Positions 766 through 12,546 of a stretch of DNA of 64,000 nt are shown piece by piece (position 1 is the stretch's first letter; every line of letters starts with the position of its first letter). The DNA is taken from positions 1-64,000 of the forward strand of contig JAAYUV010000100.1 of NCBI GenBank assembly GCA_012517475.1, given 5' to 3'. Position numbers and translations under genes: made by a program. Source of the DNA: Peptococcaceae bacterium (GTDB lineage: Bacteria; Bacillota; Desulfitobacteriia; Desulfitobacteriales; Syntrophobotulaceae). The notes under the pieces are model-generated. The model did not search any database, was not told the DNA's origin, and saw nothing but the letters and a program-made list of their open reading frames with translations.

Positions 766-2667
766 GTGGAGAAAATCATTCTAAACAAAAATGATCTTAA
801 CACGTTATTTGCCAGATTAAAGGATGAGTATGAGGTTTATGGACCTGTGGCAAAAAAAGATCAATATGTTTTTTCTATGGTCGAAAATGTGGAGGAGTTG
901 AAGTTGGATTATGACACGACAATTCTTCCTCCAAAAAAATACTTTCATTCACCTGTTCAATCTATGATTCAGTTTTCCGAGATTTCAGAAGGAGATCAAG
1001 AAAGAAGTCCGTTAGTTAAACGGGCTTTATTCGGTGTCCATCCTTGCGATGTCCACGCAACGCTAAGCCTTGATAAAGTGTTTCTGGAGACCTACCCTGA
1101 TCCGTACTACAAAGATTTGAGAAAACAGACATTAATCGTGGCCTTAAATTGCAAAAAGCCATGTCGTAATGGCTTTTGTGCTTCATTTAATACCGGTCCC
1201 GGAATTGACATCGGTTTCGATCTGTGTATGACCGATTTGGGCGATCGATATATGATTTCTGTTGGGTCTGAAAAGGGACGGGATCTTGTTTCAGGCTTTT
1301 TACCCGCCGGTGAAGAGGAAATCAGGAGAGAGAAAGATATTATTGATGACTGCAGAGACATGGTAACACGCTGGATTGACACGGAAGAGGATTTAGGGGA
1401 ATTTCTGCATCAGAATTTTGAGCACAAGGTTTGGCGGGATGTTTCGAAAGAATGTCTGGCCTGCGGGGGATGTACCACGGTTTGTCCCACATGCTATTGT
1501 TTCGCGGTGAAAGATGTAGTTGATTTGACGATCAAAGACGGAAAAAGGATGCGTTTCTGGGATTCCTGTATGTTTTATGAGTTTTCAAGAGTTGCTTTGG
1601 ATCACGTGTTTATGCCTGAAAGGGAAGCGAGAGTCAAGCAAAGGCTTTATCATAAACTTGCCTACTACCAACAGCAGTTTAATGTCCTTGGATGTGTAGG
1701 GTGCGGGCGCTGTGTTACCGCCTGTGTCAAGAATATCGATCCGGTTATGATTATGGCCAGAATCCAGGCAGATCCCTGTGAAGAAAAAGAGATATCCCTG
1801 TATAAACCGCCTCATAAAAAGATTGAGAGTGATGAAAACCCCTGGATGCCCTATAAAGCTGTAATTAAAGATATCAAAAAGCAGACCTGTGATGTAAATA
1901 CGTATACGTTTGAGTATTTGGACGAAAAAATCAAAGCAGGATACACCTACTTAAACGGTACTTATAATTTAATCAGTCTTTTCGGAACCGGTGAATCTGC
2001 CATATCGATCAGTTCCTGGGAAGAGATGAAGGGAACTTTTGAGCATACCGTCAGAGCAGTGGGAAATGTGACCAAAGCCTTAGCGGAGTTAAAAGTCGGC
2101 GACGTCGTAGGAATCAGAGGGCCCTATGGGCATGGCTGGCCGATGGAAAAGATGAAGGGCAGAAACATCCTTTTAATAGCAGGCGGGATTGGACTGGCGC
2201 CATTAAGAGGAGTAGTTGAATCAGTAAAAAACCACCGTGAAGAATATGGAAAATTTGAAATTCTTTACGGGGCAAGAACTCCAGGCGGATTGCTTTTTAC
2301 GGATGAATATGAAAAGTGGAGGCAAATTCCGGACACAAACCTTTATTTGACTGTGGATGAAGTTCCTCAAGGAATGGAATGGAATGAAAATGTTGGGGTT
2401 GTTACCACACTCTTTGACAGGATTTCCTGTTCCAGGGAGAATACCGTAGTGATCACCTGTGGTCCCGATATTATGATGAAATTCGCAGTTCTCGGTTTAA
2501 TGAAGCAAGGGTGGTCACCGGAACAGATCTACGTCTCTTTAGAACGCCGCATGGGTTGTGGCATGAAAAAATGCGGTAATTGCCAAATGGGACCGGTTTT
2601 TGTTTGTCAGGACGGACCTGTATTTCAATATGCAGAAATCATGAATCTTCCCGGAGGGGTGTTTTAA
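766..2667 (+). CDS. Fused beta-gamma subunit of a sulfhydrogenase-type [NiFe] hydrogenase
   Basis: This subunit would carry electrons between the NiFe catalytic dimer and NAD(P). The start is GTG at 766 behind GAGGAGG. Residues 1-345 match the Fe-S beta subunit (HydB type): C230-x2-C233-x2-C236 followed by CP, then a second cluster at C310-x2-C313-x2-C316-x3-C320. From about residue 365 to the end it matches the gamma subunit (HydG type), a ferredoxin-reductase-like flavin domain. It has an RGPYGHGWP flavin-loop region, a nucleotide-binding AGGIGLAP (472-479), and a C-terminal [2Fe-2S] site C598, C603, C606, C614 as in dihydroorotate dehydrogenase electron-transfer subunits. In Pyrococcus-type enzymes these are two proteins encoded in the order beta, gamma, delta, alpha. 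Here they are joined and the gene order is kept, which supports a group 3b hydrogenase. Confidence 0.85.
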   Translation: MEKIILNKNDLNTLFARLKDEYEVYGPVAKKDQYVFSMVENVEELKLDYDTTILPPKKYFHSPVQSMIQFSEISEGDQERSPLVKRALFGVHPCDVHATLSLDKVFLETYPDPYYKDLRKQTLIVALNCKKPCRNGFCASFNTGPGIDIGFDLCMTDLGDRYMISVGSEKGRDLVSGFLPAGEEEIRREKDIIDDCRDMVTRWIDTEEDLGEFLHQNFEHKVWRDVSKECLACGGCTTVCPTCYCFAVKDVVDLTIKDGKRMRFWDSCMFYEFSRVALDHVFMPEREARVKQRLYHKLAYYQQQFNVLGCVGCGRCVTACVKNIDPVMIMARIQADPCEEKEISLYKPPHKKIESDENPWMPYKAVIKDIKKQTCDVNTYTFEYLDEKIKAGYTYLNGTYNLISLFGTGESAISISSWEEMKGTFEHTVRAVGNVTKALAELKVGDVVGIRGPYGHGWPMEKMKGRNILLIAGGIGLAPLRGVVESVKNHREEYGKFEILYGARTPGGLLFTDEYEKWRQIPDTNLYLTVDEVPQGMEWNENVGVVTTLFDRISCSRENTVVITCGPDIMMKFAVLGLMKQGWSPEQIYVSLERRMGCGMKKCGNCQMGPVFVCQDGPVFQYAEIMNLPGGVF

Positions 2668-2680
2668 GGAGGGATAAACC

Positions 2681-3454
2681 GTGAGTAAGCCAAAGCTTGC
2701 TTTCTTTAAGCTTAGTTCATGTGCCGGCTGCCAGCTTTCCGTTCTCAATATTGAGCCGGTTTTGCTGGATGTACTCGGGGCCATTGATATTACCTACTTT
2801 GTCATGGCGAAGCGCAGTAATTACCACGGGCCTTATGATATCGGCTTTGTGGAAGGCGCGGTTACTTCTCCCCGTGAGCTGGAAGAACTTAAAAACATTC
2901 GCCGGGAGTGCAATTTGGTTGTTGCCATGGGGACATGCGCTTGTTTTGGCGGTATTCCGTCTATCAAAAATTTCACCGGGATGACGCAAAGACAAATGGA
3001 AGAAAAAGTTTATTCAGAGCTTTGGGATATCAAATCCATTCCTGTTCAGGGAATTGATTATTATATTCCGGTTGATCATTATCTCCGGGGTTGCCCGATT
3101 GATCTGGAAGAATTTCTTACCCTGGTCAAAAGTTTGTTAAAAGGGGTAAATCCGCACTTCCGTTTTCATAGTGTCTGCAATGAATGTAAACTAAACGAAA
3201 ACATCTGTCTTTTGGTGAACAGGGGTAAGGCCTGCATGGGATCTGTCACCGCCTCAGGGTGTAATGCCCTATGCCCCAGTCTGGGCAGGGAATGTGAAGG
3301 ATGCAGGGGACCTGCCAGCGACTGTAATGCGGAATCCCTGGCCAAAACGTTTAGCAAAGAATTAGGACTGGATAAAGCGGATATTGTCAGGAAGTTCCGC
3401 AAATACGCAGGAAACACGTCTGAATTCAGTAAAGGAGCTGGGGACAATGAGTAA
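2681..3454 (+). CDS. [NiFe] hydrogenase small (delta) subunit
   Basis: This is the electron-transfer small subunit that pairs with the NiFe large subunit. The start is GTG at 2681, 13 bases after the previous stop, behind AAGGAGGG. The proximal cluster ligands are visible: CAGC at residues 14-17, CACFGGIPS, and GCPID. The C-terminal third is cysteine-rich (CNECKLNENIC, CNALCPSLGRECEGC), as expected for the extra Fe-S clusters of sulfhydrogenase delta subunits. There is no twin-arginine signal, so the enzyme should be cytoplasmic. At 257 aa it is normal length for the family. It overlaps the next gene by 8 bases. Confidence 0.88.
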   Translation: MSKPKLAFFKLSSCAGCQLSVLNIEPVLLDVLGAIDITYFVMAKRSNYHGPYDIGFVEGAVTSPRELEELKNIRRECNLVVAMGTCACFGGIPSIKNFTGMTQRQMEEKVYSELWDIKSIPVQGIDYYIPVDHYLRGCPIDLEEFLTLVKSLLKGVNPHFRFHSVCNECKLNENICLLVNRGKACMGSVTASGCNALCPSLGRECEGCRGPASDCNAESLAKTFSKELGLDKADIVRKFRKYAGNTSEFSKGAGDNE

Positions 3455-4763
3455 CAGAAGGATTCATGTGGATTACATTGCCAGGGCTGAAGGTGACGGT
3501 GCCTTTGATATTGTGATTGACAATGAGGGCGTATTGAAGAAAGCATCCTGGCAGGTATGGGAACCCCCACGTTTTTTTGAGGCGTTTATGGTAGGACGAA
3601 AAGCTGAAGAAGTTCCGGAACTGGTTCAGCGGATTTGCGGAATTTGCCCGCATTCCCATCATATTTCCGCTTTGAGAGCTGTAGAAAGGGCTATGGACGT
3701 TACAGTAAGTGAGCAGACGGTACTCTTAAGGGAACTTCTCCATTATTCCGACTGGATTATGAGTCATGCCTTGCATGTATATTATCTCGCTGCGCCGGAT
3801 TTTCTCGGATATGAAAGCGTGATTGCCATGACTGAAAATCCGGACCTTTTGCCCATCGTAAAAGAGGCCCTGAAATTAAAACGGTTGGGAAATGATATGA
3901 TCGTTTGTCTGTCCGGTCAGGAGATTCAGAATAAAACATCCGTAATAGGCGGTTTTACCTCTTTGCCCACGCTGTCCGATCTGAATAAGATGAAGGAACA
4001 GTTAAAGAAGATGAAGGATTTTGCCTATTCCACAGTTGGGTTGGCCAACCAGCTGGCATCCCAGGTTCCCTACAAGGATCTTTCCAGGAAGTGTGAGCAT
4101 GTAGCTTTATCCGATCCGGATAAATATGCCATCAATGACGGCAGGTTTGTATCCACTGAGGGTCTTGATATTGGGGATTGGGAATATCCGCAGTGGATCA
4201 TGGAATCTCATATTCCGGGCTGCAATGCCAAACATTCTGTGATCAAGGGAAGGGATTCTTTCCTGACCGGACCTTTGGCCAGAGTAAACGTGAACTTTAA
4301 TAAACTCTCGAAAGATGCCGGAAAAGCAGCCGGGGAGGTCGGCTTCAATCCGCCGTCATTCAATCCGTTTATGAGTATTGTTGCCCGGGCAATTGAGTTG
4401 GTTCATGCCATTGACACATCCACAGAGCTGATTGATGCAATAGGAAAACCCGTGGAAGAAGAGCCCAAGTTCAGCTATAAAGCCGGTGAATCTTATGCCA
4501 TTACCGAAGCCCCAAGAGGAATTTGCTGTCACGGCGGGAAAATCGATAAATACGGGGTTGTACAAAAATGGGATATTGTTGCTCCCACGGCAAGAAATAT
4601 ATATAATCTGGAAAAAGATTTCCGGGAATTTATACCTAAGCTCTTGCACCTCAGCGATGAAGAACTTACTTTAAAGTGTGAAGTGATGATAAGAAATTAC
4701 GATCCCTGCCAGTCTTGCGCCACACACTCTCTTAAAATCAGGCTGCGCCGGGAAGGAAATTGA
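3447..4763 (+). CDS. [NiFe] hydrogenase large (alpha) subunit
   Basis: This is the catalytic subunit holding the Ni-Fe site. I chose ATG 3447 (AAAGGAGCT ribosome-binding site), which gives 438 aa, over an upstream in-frame alternative at 3384 inside the previous gene. The L1 motif RICGICPHSH is at residues 62-71 (Ni ligands C64, C67). The L2 motif DPCQSCATH is near the C-terminus (C421, C424, H427), followed by an 11-residue tail that a maturation protease would remove after H427. All four nickel ligands are cysteine, so this is not a [NiFeSe] enzyme. The protease gene follows directly. Confidence 0.9.
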   Translation: MSNRRIHVDYIARAEGDGAFDIVIDNEGVLKKASWQVWEPPRFFEAFMVGRKAEEVPELVQRICGICPHSHHISALRAVERAMDVTVSEQTVLLRELLHYSDWIMSHALHVYYLAAPDFLGYESVIAMTENPDLLPIVKEALKLKRLGNDMIVCLSGQEIQNKTSVIGGFTSLPTLSDLNKMKEQLKKMKDFAYSTVGLANQLASQVPYKDLSRKCEHVALSDPDKYAINDGRFVSTEGLDIGDWEYPQWIMESHIPGCNAKHSVIKGRDSFLTGPLARVNVNFNKLSKDAGKAAGEVGFNPPSFNPFMSIVARAIELVHAIDTSTELIDAIGKPVEEEPKFSYKAGESYAITEAPRGICCHGGKIDKYGVVQKWDIVAPTARNIYNLEKDFREFIPKLLHLSDEELTLKCEVMIRNYDPCQSCATHSLKIRLRREGN

Positions 4764-5263
4764 TGGCCTGCGGGATCATGGTGATAGGATGCGGCAATAC
4801 ATGGGCATCCGATGATGCGATTGGGATTCGCGTTGTAGAGTTTCTTAAAAAAAGCTATGATATCCCCTCAGATGTAACAATCGTGGAAGCCGGCTGCCCG
4901 GGAATTGATCTTCTTTTCATCTGGGAAGACGTCCCGGCGGTGATCCTCGTAGATGCAGTAACCGGATTTGGAATGCCGGGGACGATTCATACTTTCGACG
5001 CCGATCATCTTTTACCGCGAGAGAAAATGCCGTATTCTTCCCATTCCATTAACGTAATCGACGCGATCGAACTGGGAAAAAAATTCCGGCAATTGCCTTG
5101 TCTGCTGACAATTGTCGGAATAGAAATTAAAAGCGAGGAATCATTCTGTTTGAAATTGTCTCCGGAAGTGGAAGAAGCCCTTCCGGCGGCATGTGAGACG
5201 ATTTTCCGGGAAATCGAGAAGATCCGCTGCGCCTCTTCATTAACTGCAGATACTCCTTTATGA
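4763..5263 (+). CDS. Hydrogenase maturation protease (HycI/HyaD/FrxA family)
   Basis: This endopeptidase removes the C-terminal tail of the large subunit after nickel insertion. ATG 4763 overlaps the TGA of the large subunit by one base, so the genes are translationally coupled. The N-terminus IMVIGCGNTWASDDAIGIRV carries the family's GxGNxxxxDD-x-G motif with the nickel-sensing Asp/Glu. The later acidic residue (EAGCPG) and a SSHSINV motif with a metal-ligand His are also present. 166 aa is the usual length. It is the last gene of the operon and a strong terminator follows. Confidence 0.85.
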   Translation: MACGIMVIGCGNTWASDDAIGIRVVEFLKKSYDIPSDVTIVEAGCPGIDLLFIWEDVPAVILVDAVTGFGMPGTIHTFDADHLLPREKMPYSSHSINVIDAIELGKKFRQLPCLLTIVGIEIKSEESFCLKLSPEVEEALPAACETIFREIEKIRCASSLTADTPL

Positions 5264-6375: not shown

Positions 6376-6393
6376 TTCATGGAGGAGATTATC

Positions 6394-6699
6394 ATGCAAA
6401 TCACTCCCATTGCGGCAGAAAAAATTAAAGAGATTATGAAACAAAATGAAAATCCGGAAAGTCTAATGCTTAGGGTAGATGTGGATGGTTATGGCTGAGG
6501 CGGTCCAAGATTAAAATTAGCTCTGGAGGAGTTAAAAGGCGAACGTGATAAAGCTGTAGAAATGAGCGGAGTCCGGATCGTTTACGATTCCGGGATTGAA
6601 GAGGCTATCGAGAACCTGACCATTGATTATTCAGATAGTTCGATGCAGCGCGGGTTCATCGTGAAAGGATCGGATTGTTCGGATTGTTCTTCCTGTTAA
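6394..6699 (+). CDS. HesB/IscA-like (A-type) selenoprotein with in-frame UGA at codon 35
   Basis: A conventional reading stops at TGA 6496-6498, but the frame is open on both sides and gives a 101-residue A-type protein. ATG 6394 has GGAGGAG 7 bases upstream, and the stop is TAA 6697-6699. The N-terminal half (MQITPIAAEKIKEIM, SLMLRVDVDGYG) matches the HesB/IscA fold. The UGA codon sits where the family has the cysteine of the 'SGCSG' loop, which is residue 35 in E. coli IscA. The second half (GGPRLKLALEE, GVRIVYDSG) continues the fold. The C-terminus carries DCSDCSSC, equivalent to the CxC pair that completes the Fe-S site. A SECIS-like hairpin starts 18 bases after the UGA. HesB-like selenoproteins are an established bacterial family. 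Role inferred: Fe-S or selenium/sulfur handling or redox. A simple nonsense mutation is the alternative, but loss of exactly the catalytic Cys codon together with a hairpin argues against it. Confidence 0.85.
6496..6535 (+). promoter_or_regulatory. UGA codon and bacterial SECIS-like hairpin
   Basis: The UGA is 6496-6498. UUAGCUC (6517-6523) pairs with GAGUUAA (6529-6535) over 7 base pairs, including one G-U. The apical loop is UGGAG (6524-6528). The loop starts 25 bases after the UGA and has G at its second position. Both features agree with published rules for bacterial SECIS elements (loop about 16-37 nt from the UGA, at least one G among the first two loop bases). Confidence 0.75.
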
Positions 6700-6707
6700 G
6701 ATGATTG

Positions 6708-6982
6708 AACAAGAAGGGGCAGTTGTAAAACGACTGGTCTCCGTAATGTATAGACAGCGTCAAGTGCGTTACGCATGCGTAACGCGATGCGGAGCGCGGC
6801 AGTTTCGAAGGCCAAGGATGGCCTGGGAAGTAAATGTCCAGTGGACATTTCTTCCGATGCCATGGATGGCATTGAGCGGCTCGCCACGGATGCGTGAAGG
6901 CTAGTGGCCTTCACGATCTGCCGAGAGCGGCTATACATTGCGGAGACCTCTCTTATGTAGTTTTGCAGTGCCCTTTCTTGTT
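6708..6982. repeat. Multi-hairpin palindromic element A (about 275 bp)
   Basis: The ends form a long imperfect inverted repeat: AACAAGAAGGGGCA (6708-6721) against TGCCCTTTCTTGTT (6969-6982), and GGTCTCCGTAATGTATAG (6736-6753) against CTATACATTGCGGAGACC (6931-6948). Inside is a chain of small hairpins: CGTTACGCATGCGTAACG (6767-6784), GGCCAAGGATGGCC, AATGTCCAGTGGACATT, TGCCATGGATGGCA (6858-6871) and GTGAAGGCTAGTGGCCTTCAC (6893-6913, near-perfect). Related copies lie at 22443-22652 and 51333-51530, and a relative is inside the ABC-F gene. No protein is encoded; short ORFs across it are by-products of the palindromes. Confidence 0.85.
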
Positions 6983-10575: not shown

Positions 10576-12546
10576 ATGAGTATTTTATTTTGCAGGAACG
10601 TAGAAATTGAAGTTGCGGGGAGTACGCTTCTTGAAAATATATCATTTCGACTGGAAAAAGGAGAAAAGGCAGGGCTTGTTGGAGCAAACGGAGCCGGAAA
10701 AACGACTCTTTTGCGTGTGTTAATGGGGGAAATCCCTTACGAAAAAGGGGAAATCGACAGACCGTTAACCATAGGATATCTCCCTCAGGCAACGGCCACG
10801 GAGGGCCTAATGCCGCGGTTTCAAGGAGGAAAAGGAGCGGCAACGGCCACGGAGGGCCTAATGCCTCGACGATCAGGAGGATCTAGTGCTGCGATGCCAT
10901 GGATGGCAAAGAGCAGCGAATTTCAAGGTACCGTTTTTCACTCGATGCTTTCTGAAAGACAAGATATTATGGATATGCGGGAAAATCTTCGCTATTTGGA
11001 GATTAGGATGTCTCAGGAGGCCGATGAAAAAACCCTTGAACAATACAGCAAGTTAACCGAAAAATACGAGCATGACGGGGGATATGCCCTGGAAGCCCAG
11101 GCCCGTAAGATTCTTGCCGGATTAGGGTTCTCCAACGATCATGCGAAAGACTGCCAAAACCTCAGCGGCGGACAAAAGACCAGGCTCGCACTGGGAAAAT
11201 TGCTCCTGCGAGAGCCTGAACTTCTCATACTCGACGAGCCTACCAATCACCTGGATATTGAAGCCTTGGAATGGCTGGAAAACTACTTGAATGATTATTC
11301 CGGTGCTGTTCTGGTTGTTTCCCACGACCGGTATTTTCTGGACAGGGTCTCCAGCCGGATTTTCCTAATCCAGGATGGGAATTTAAAAGAATATACGGGG
11401 AACTATACAGAGTTTGAACTGCAGCGGGCGGTCGAAGAAGTGACATTAACCAGGGAAGCGGAAAGGGTAAACAAAAAGATCGCTGATTTGGAAGAATATA
11501 TCCGCCGGCATGGGGCAGGGATCAAGGCCAAACAAGCCAGGGGAAGAGAAACCCAGCTTAAGAAAATTACCCCCGTAACTGCTCCTAAAGTGACGAAATC
11601 CCTGAACCTTCACTTTGGCCCCCAAAACAGAGCAGGGGATAAGGTTCTGAATATTGATAACCTTTCCATCGCTTATCATCAGAAGGAAATATTTAAAAAT
11701 GTTGAACTGGAATTACGCAGGGGAGACCGGGTTGCCCTTTTGGGGAAGAACGGAATCGGAAAGACTTCCCTGTTAAAAGCTGTTTTGGGAAAAATACCTT
11801 TTCATGGATCAATCCGAATCGGAGCAAATGTATCTATCGGCTACTTTTCTCAGGAACATGAAGATATTGGACTCAGGGACACCGTTATCGATGAGATCCG
11901 TTATTCAACAAAATACGAGGACCCTCAGATCAGAAATATCCTTGCTGGATTTGGATTCCGGGGAGATGATGTTTTCAAGCCTCTCCAGGTTCTCAGCGGT
12001 GGGGAAAAAAGCAGACTGGCCCTGTGTAAATTGTTTTTGGCCAAAGGAAACCTGCTTCTTTTGGATGAGCCAACAAACCACCTGGACATGGATACAAGGG
12101 AAGTACTTGAAGAAGCTTTGCTGGAGTATGATGGAACCATACTGACCGTATCGCATGACAGGTATTTTTTAAACCGGATTGTTAACAAGATAGCAATCCT
12201 GACTCCTCTGGGTTTAAGAATCATTGAAGGAGATTATACTACTTACCGGGAAATTATCGAGAATGAAAATTCCATGGAAGACCAAACCGGAAATCAGGAT
12301 GCTCCGACTACTTCTGCTTCCAGGAGTTTTCAGGAAGAATCCAAAAATAACCGGCGTAAAGAGAAAAAAATAAAACAGCTGGAAGAAAAAATCGAAAAGA
12401 CAGAAGAATTACTCCGGATAACAGAACGGAATTTGGAGTTGGTTTCCGGTGATTATGAGCAAACTTTAAAGCTGCATACCGAGTATGAAAAGCTGCAGGA
12501 AGAGTTAGACATACTCATGCAGGAGTGGCTGGTTTTCTCTGATTAA
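10576..12546 (+). CDS. ABC-F family ATPase (YdiF/Uup-like) with a repeat-derived insertion
   Basis: A soluble protein with two ABC domains and no membrane segments; ABC-F proteins act on ribosomes. Domain 1 has GANGAGKTT, LSGGQKTRLAL and LLILDEPTNHLD. Domain 2 has GKNGIGKTS, LSGGEKSRLAL and LLLLDEPTNHLD. The linker (~290-340) is charged, and the last ~80 residues are a coiled coil (KEKKIKQLEEKIEKTEELL), as in YdiF and Uup. Directly after the Q-loop glutamine of domain 1 (YLPQ, residue 71) there are ~47 extra residues. They include two copies of ATATEGLMPR and the stretch AMPWMA, which are translations of the palindromic repeat found elsewhere in the window. The frame stays open through the insertion. 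Both ABC domains look intact, so the protein may still work. Housekeeping translation factor versus antibiotic resistance cannot be decided. Confidence 0.88.
   Translation: MSILFCRNVEIEVAGSTLLENISFRLEKGEKAGLVGANGAGKTTLLRVLMGEIPYEKGEIDRPLTIGYLPQATATEGLMPRFQGGKGAATATEGLMPRRSGGSSAAMPWMAKSSEFQGTVFHSMLSERQDIMDMRENLRYLEIRMSQEADEKTLEQYSKLTEKYEHDGGYALEAQARKILAGLGFSNDHAKDCQNLSGGQKTRLALGKLLLREPELLILDEPTNHLDIEALEWLENYLNDYSGAVLVVSHDRYFLDRVSSRIFLIQDGNLKEYTGNYTEFELQRAVEEVTLTREAERVNKKIADLEEYIRRHGAGIKAKQARGRETQLKKITPVTAPKVTKSLNLHFGPQNRAGDKVLNIDNLSIAYHQKEIFKNVELELRRGDRVALLGKNGIGKTSLLKAVLGKIPFHGSIRIGANVSIGYFSQEHEDIGLRDTVIDEIRYSTKYEDPQIRNILAGFGFRGDDVFKPLQVLSGGEKSRLALCKLFLAKGNLLLLDEPTNHLDMDTREVLEEALLEYDGTILTVSHDRYFLNRIVNKIAILTPLGLRIIEGDYTTYREIIENENSMEDQTGNQDAPTTSASRSFQEESKNNRRKEKKIKQLEEKIEKTEELLRITERNLELVSGDYEQTLKLHTEYEKLQEELDILMQEWLVFSD
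10788..10929. repeat. In-frame palindromic repeat D inside the ABC-F gene
   Basis: A 27-bp unit starting GGCAACGGCCACGGAGGGCC occurs twice, at 10788-10814 and 10839-10865, 51 bases (17 codons) apart. Each unit can fold as a nested hairpin. It is followed by GATGCCATGGATGGCA (10893-10908), which is shared exactly with elements A and B. The downstream GAGC and upstream CTAGTGC context also match element B. Total length keeps the host frame. The outer terminal arms of elements A-C are missing, so this is a partial or rearranged copy. Confidence 0.75.

Follow-up and report, generated by a model that had tools for sequence, protein, structure and literature searches.

HesB-like selenoproteins form a family that is already established (PMC1794560, PMC11097638). 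A 2006 listing held 11 HesB-like members and recorded Sec-to-Cys conversions, among them a case in Desulfitobacterium (PMC1794560). The UxGP motif marks these proteins in a review that also names the model TIGR01911 (PMC13188914). In Methanococcus maripaludis, the HesB-like selenoprotein MMJJ_08070 was demonstrated by mutagenesis and 75Se labelling, and disruption of the Methanococcus gene left nitrogen fixation unimpaired (PMC11097638). Here, we examine a gene of this kind in a window of 64,000 nucleotides (the whole stretch of DNA that was analysed) from a Peptococcaceae bacterium. The initial annotation of the window proposed an A-type selenoprotein hidden behind an in-frame UGA and noted that HesB-like selenoproteins exist in bacteria, as the described family bears out (PMC1794560).

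The reading frame and its A-type domain

A TGA at codon 35 is the sole interruption of a 101-residue HesB/IscA (A-type, PF01521) frame that spans 6394-6699. The locus comprises the following features:

6381-6387, forward strand: ribosome-binding site GGAGGAG, 6 nt 5' of the ATG, read from the sequence
6394-6699, forward strand: coding sequence of the HesB/IscA-like selenoprotein, 101 amino acids with U35, a frame readable through the TGA in relatives too
6394, forward strand: start codon ATG, read from the sequence
6496-6498, forward strand: UGA codon 35, predicted to be read as Sec, in the motif GYG-U-GGP (UxGP); TGA in 62/62 loci when the codon was left free; aligned with the first A-type Cys
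6517-6535, forward strand: predicted SECIS hairpin in the mRNA, with a 7-bp stem (6517-6523 / 6529-6535) and the loop UGGAG (6524-6528), marked by frozen synonymous codons and covariation
6676-6696, forward strand: C-terminal Cys codons C95 (6676-6678), C98 (6685-6687) and C101 (6694-6696), read from the sequence
6697-6699, forward strand: stop codon TAA, read from the sequence

Re-reading of the sequence returned exactly the 101 codons and the codon 35 TGA of the initial annotation, as well as the good ribosome-binding site that it had claimed. A plain ORF listing is empty at 6394-6699, in agreement with its further claim that standard ORF calling misses the gene. When read through the TGA, the protein exceeds the cut-offs of both PF01521 (Pfam; 37.1 bits against 26.3) and the NCBIfam model TIGR00049 (62.4 bits against 58.8), which upholds its assignment as an A-type sequence. 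An AlphaFold2 model displays the A-type fold (mean pLDDT 81), and the top PDB matches of the model are E. coli IscA (1r94 and 1s98; TM 0.80-0.81). In profile alignments with solved IscA-like proteins, residue 35 pairs with their first A-type Cys, confirming that codon 35 sits at the site of the first IscA Cys.

Recoding of the UGA at codon 35

The in-frame TGA, followed by a hairpin that is not significant as a single sequence, could mark a pseudogene, with a real stop, or an error of sequencing. Yet 104 distinct genes share this TGA, and they stem from many independent genomes in several phyla, which excludes chance and disposes of a sequencing error at 6496-6498. Moreover, purifying selection acts on the part of the gene 3' of the TGA (dN 0.34 versus dS 1.7 between the window and locus L018, from a plain Nei-Gojobori script). 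With the frozen, covarying hairpin and the complete Sec-decoding set described below also standing against it, we consider a real stop extremely improbable.

Matches to the protein occur in 49 of 61 genomes, comprising the window's own and 60 relatives. Three genomes of the same family (G004, G007 and G011) yielded no match to the Sec protein, so its role is dispensable in them. In every homologue read out, codon 35 is either TGA or a Cys codon, and no other sense codon appears at this position among the homologues inspected. We scanned 84,980 GTDB genomes with a degenerate DNA pattern in which codon 35 was left open and recovered 62 loci of the window-like branch, all of them with TGA (62/62; Cys 0, other codons 0); because the pattern was derived from this branch, the Cys-bearing sister branch is uncounted. 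The hosts of these loci belong to the Bacillota, Desulfuromonadales, Spirochaetota and Fidelibacterota, with one bin labelled Chloroflexota. The cultivable Clostridium ljungdahlii also has a member in its genome (L128). Scored against their own profile, full-length window-like members reach at least 131 bits and the rest of the class at most 96; a single window-like member, cut off by the end of its contig, scores 97. In a tree of 115 rows, which was built from 103 columns and in which many forks are unsure, the window falls into a Bacillota group of 30 rows (98/95) that are all Sec, and the Cys forms are confined to a separate group, composed of the window's class. Some relatives carry extra TAA, TAG or TGA codons, which we considered as pyrrolysine or second Sec codons and rejected as normal stops just past ...SSC.

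The hairpin begins 18 bases past the UGA, at 6517, as the initial annotation described it (7 bp, loop UGGAG), and places the apical loop 25 nt from the UGA. The published bacterial SECIS model has a loop of 3-9 nt with a G in the first two positions, lying 16-37 nt from the UGA, and an MFE of at most -7.5 kcal/mol (PMC13188914). Loop and spacing fit this model, but the energy falls on either side of its limit depending on the stretch folded: the bare 36-nt stretch yields -6.3 kcal/mol, short of the limit, and 6499-6560 yields -8.4. An Rfam search returned no SECIS-like match near the gene. Folded alone, the hairpin is no better than shuffled sequences (z from -0.19 to +0.77), and a synonymous-codon control for the window hairpin gave a z of -0.72.

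Rather, the hairpin is convincing because of the comparison across genes. Codons +8 to +11 past the UGA are frozen in the 104 Sec genes (Thr as ACT in 55/55 and Ala as GCT in 49/49, Leu as CTG in 103/104, Asp as GAT in 85/92 and Glu as GAG in 104/104), and the codons that adjoin this block vary freely. In the 18 Cys homologues, the same codons are relaxed (ACT/GCT in 14/17 Thr/Ala codons, CTG in 10/18, GAG in 10/14). Counted over all 104 Sec genes, kin included, the pair formed by nt22 and nt34 covaries (A-U 55, G-C 36, G-U 13, A-C 0; Fisher p 2e-17). Codon-shuffled controls gave a mean z of -1.8 in the Sec set and of -0.7 in the Cys set. Judged by this conservation, the hairpin at 6517-6535 behaves as a bacterial SECIS. 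Its near-invariant string ACU/GCU-CUG-GAU-GAG offers a practical query for genes which plain ORF callers truncate at the UGA and which score below the cut-offs of the current NCBIfam selenoprotein models.

Given that homologues of other lineages carry Cys at codon 35, the UGA might instead be decoded as Cys, or as Trp, through suppression or an altered genetic code. Yet the host genome (G000; 3.68 Mb in 115 contigs, 98% complete) encodes selA, selB, a tRNA-Sec with the anticodon UCA and two selD-like genes, as found by targeted family searches, and the SECIS is conserved only together with TGA and relaxed where a Cys codon takes its place, leaving decoding as Cys or Trp scarcely credible. The selA, selB, selC and selD genes on which the initial annotation made its claim depend are thus all present. 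A positive control lies within the same genome: a host selD reads ...TASSGUAAKL, with an in-frame TGA in the UAAK motif, and so falls on UxxK, the known Sec site of SelD.

Comparative computation shows the UGA to be recoded, with a SECIS and the Sec machinery in place. Decoding would proceed on the ribosome, where SelB and Sec-tRNA(UCA), directed by the hairpin, almost certainly read the UGA at 6496-6498 as Sec. Sec35 would then stand in for the Cys that supplies the first metal ligand in A-type proteins, a replacement that was proposed at the outset and that is supported by the sel genes, the restriction of codon 35 to TGA or Cys, and the conservation of the SECIS.

The two SelD genes of the host genome lie at G000:C12:73444 (L011) and G000:C14:8481 (L012). 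In one of them Sec lies within GUAAK. Its counterpart adjoins selA and carries, at an upstream position, an in-frame TGA in MAUEEKG, which also fits UxxK; it may be a second Sec-containing SelD.

Candidate roles of the selenoprotein

We favor the reading that this A-type selenoprotein serves as a carrier of an Fe-S cluster (or of iron) with a selenolate ligand, which we consider probable. It would work with the IscU-type system of an anaerobe, and its selenolate would be one ligand of the cluster. In a dimer, Sec35 and a terminal Cys from each chain would supply four ligands. We infer this cluster-carrying role and ligand set along with the anaerobic life of the host and an advantage of Sec. 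The 6394-6699 gene is the single PF01521 match in the host genome, which encodes two IscU-type proteins; the SufB/D family, found in 14/14 control genomes, had no match in this 98% complete genome. The Sec protein is hence the only candidate for an A-type carrier in its host. An Fe-S-carrier fold with Sec at the metal-binding position is unusual.

The C-terminus bears on the ligand set. The cysteines that the initial annotation pointed to are present, as C95, C98 and C101, but the C-x-C of IscA is not kept. Among 97 Sec forms, 60 have one tail Cys, ten have two, 25 have three and two lack any, whereas each of the 18 Cys forms carries three to five. Because most Sec forms keep a single tail Cys, the C-x-C pair is absent from most of the branch, and L023, a relative, has zero C-terminal Cys; both speak against a carrier, as do the lack of a match in G004, G007 and G011 and the unimpaired nitrogen fixation after disruption of the Methanococcus gene (PMC11097638). 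The seven C-terminal residues of the model have pLDDT values below 50, which places the geometry between Sec35 and the cysteines beyond judgement in the model.

The retention of Sec with mostly one C-terminal Cys, versus three to five in the Cys forms, also suits a true selenoprotein of a different kind, a redox protein in which Sec35 and a C-terminal Cys would form a selenenylsulphide and, under oxygen stress, reduce peroxide, a disulphide or some other small oxidant. Gene neighborhoods, in which neighbors outside the window's family were named by reading their sequences and not by family search, lend this some weight. Rubrerythrin adjoins hesB in 7/7 Spirochaetota loci (L113, L118, L124, L133, L148, L150 and L155), with a CoA-disulphide-reductase-like gene on the other side in 5/7 and cydAB in 6/7. 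Some of these neighborhoods include a PerR/Fur-like regulator and a rubredoxin:oxygen-oxidoreductase-like protein, and one a peroxiredoxin. In two Desulfuromonadales loci (L115 and L138) cydAB adjoins hesB, and several loci of the Tissierellia type have a small glutaredoxin-like gene roughly 1 kb upstream. These neighbors in Spirochaetota and Desulfuromonadales are, however, mostly on the strand opposite to hesB, so that the spirochaete genes do not form one operon with it. The window gene itself has no such neighbors: in its own family, polA, mutM and an ABC-F gene follow downstream, with no obvious functional link. Fold and family are A-type and not thioredoxin-like, neither a UxxC nor a CxxU motif is present, and L023 has no Cys in its tail. 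Taken together, we regard a redox role as possible but rather unlikely.

Other neighborhoods point to selenium metabolism, in which the protein would carry or sense reduced selenium on behalf of SelD or SelA. The selB gene lies directly 5' of hesB in Clostridium homopropionicum, C. bovifaecis and an uncultured clostridium, at a distance of 42-64 nt, and the gap widens to about 150-250 nt in G395, G351 and G083, three further genomes that belong to other families. At a seventh locus, L106, selA and selB are nearby, and the gene order in C. homopropionicum is selD-selA-selB-hesB. Most loci, including that of the window, are nevertheless not beside sel genes, and the adjacency may only record that a selenoprotein gene was transferred together with the genes needed to decode it; we therefore hold a role in selenium metabolism to be quite improbable. 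A recurrent cluster of neighbor proteins in the synteny analysis was rejected, as it is the antisense frame of the gene itself.

The carrier reading remains the one we prefer over the redox or selenium/sulfur chemistry that the initial annotation suggested in its place, and the contexts, selB in some lineages and rubrerythrin or cydAB in others, are compatible with several roles. A more speculative reading, which we hold unlikely, is that of an obligate-selenium A-type subfamily, in which Sec and a single tail Cys would build an Fe-S (or redox) site with a selenolate ligand for which Cys is no substitute, for selenium handling or oxygen defence. If true, it would explain the absence of a Cys form among the 62 loci even though three-Cys A-type proteins are common elsewhere. 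The all-Sec branch, its selB and oxygen-defence settings and the standing of the protein as the sole A-type protein in its host make the role directly testable.

Two further observations concern the surroundings of the gene. Between hesB and polA, the window contains an element of about 210 bp (6736-6948) with an 18-nt inverted repeat (94%) that encloses several short perfect palindromes. Four exact copies of the unit GCCATGGATGGC lie in the window, and six with one mismatch, against 0.29 expected. Because the unit recurs in the window, including one copy within the ABC-F ORF at 10896, the element looks like a repeat of the REP/MITE type. Upstream, at 766-5263, the ORF listing read by eye suggests a four-gene [NiFe]-hydrogenase set: an FeS/FAD fusion, a small subunit, a large subunit with the Cys-type ligand motif DPCQSCATH, and a maturation protease.

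Comparison with known families

The window protein resembles the HesB-like selenoproteins (PMC1794560) in its A-type/HesB domain, Sec at the first conserved Cys, the UxGP motif and a SECIS just downstream. It combines the PF01521 domain and the IscA fold with a UGA at that Cys, in a genome with selA, selB, selC and selD. A presumably anaerobic host and Cys forms in Desulfitobacterium-type relatives are likewise shared. Its scores fall below the NCBIfam selenoprotein cut-offs (TIGR01911, 33.9 bits versus 66.35; NF038090, 58.3 versus 85). With the stop read through, 0/398 sampled Bacillota genomes exceeded either cut-off, and none of ten representatives with Cys substituted did so. In the limited literature searched, we found no mention of the all-Sec branch, the frozen SECIS or the selB adjacency. 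The archaeal MMJJ_08070, likened to the window protein by description, is a HesB-like selenoprotein too. Its SECIS is expected to be of the archaeal type.

The A-type Fe-S carriers IscA, SufA and ErpA share with the window protein their fold (TM 0.8 to E. coli IscA) and the place of the first metal ligand. Unlike these carriers, which combine C35 with a C-terminal C-x-C, the window protein has U35 and C95, C98 and C101, with Sec in place of Cys35 and no C-x-C tail motif, and it stays below the equivalog cut-offs of TIGR02011, TIGR01997 and ErpA. The A-type fold also occurs in DsrR (2k4z), which presumably lacks the cluster-binding Cys, so that the fold is able to do other work. The kind of selenoprotein is thus already described. 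What sets the window protein apart from the described family is its place in an all-Sec branch with mostly a single tail Cys, and new as well are the scores below the NCBIfam cut-offs and the varied neighbors.
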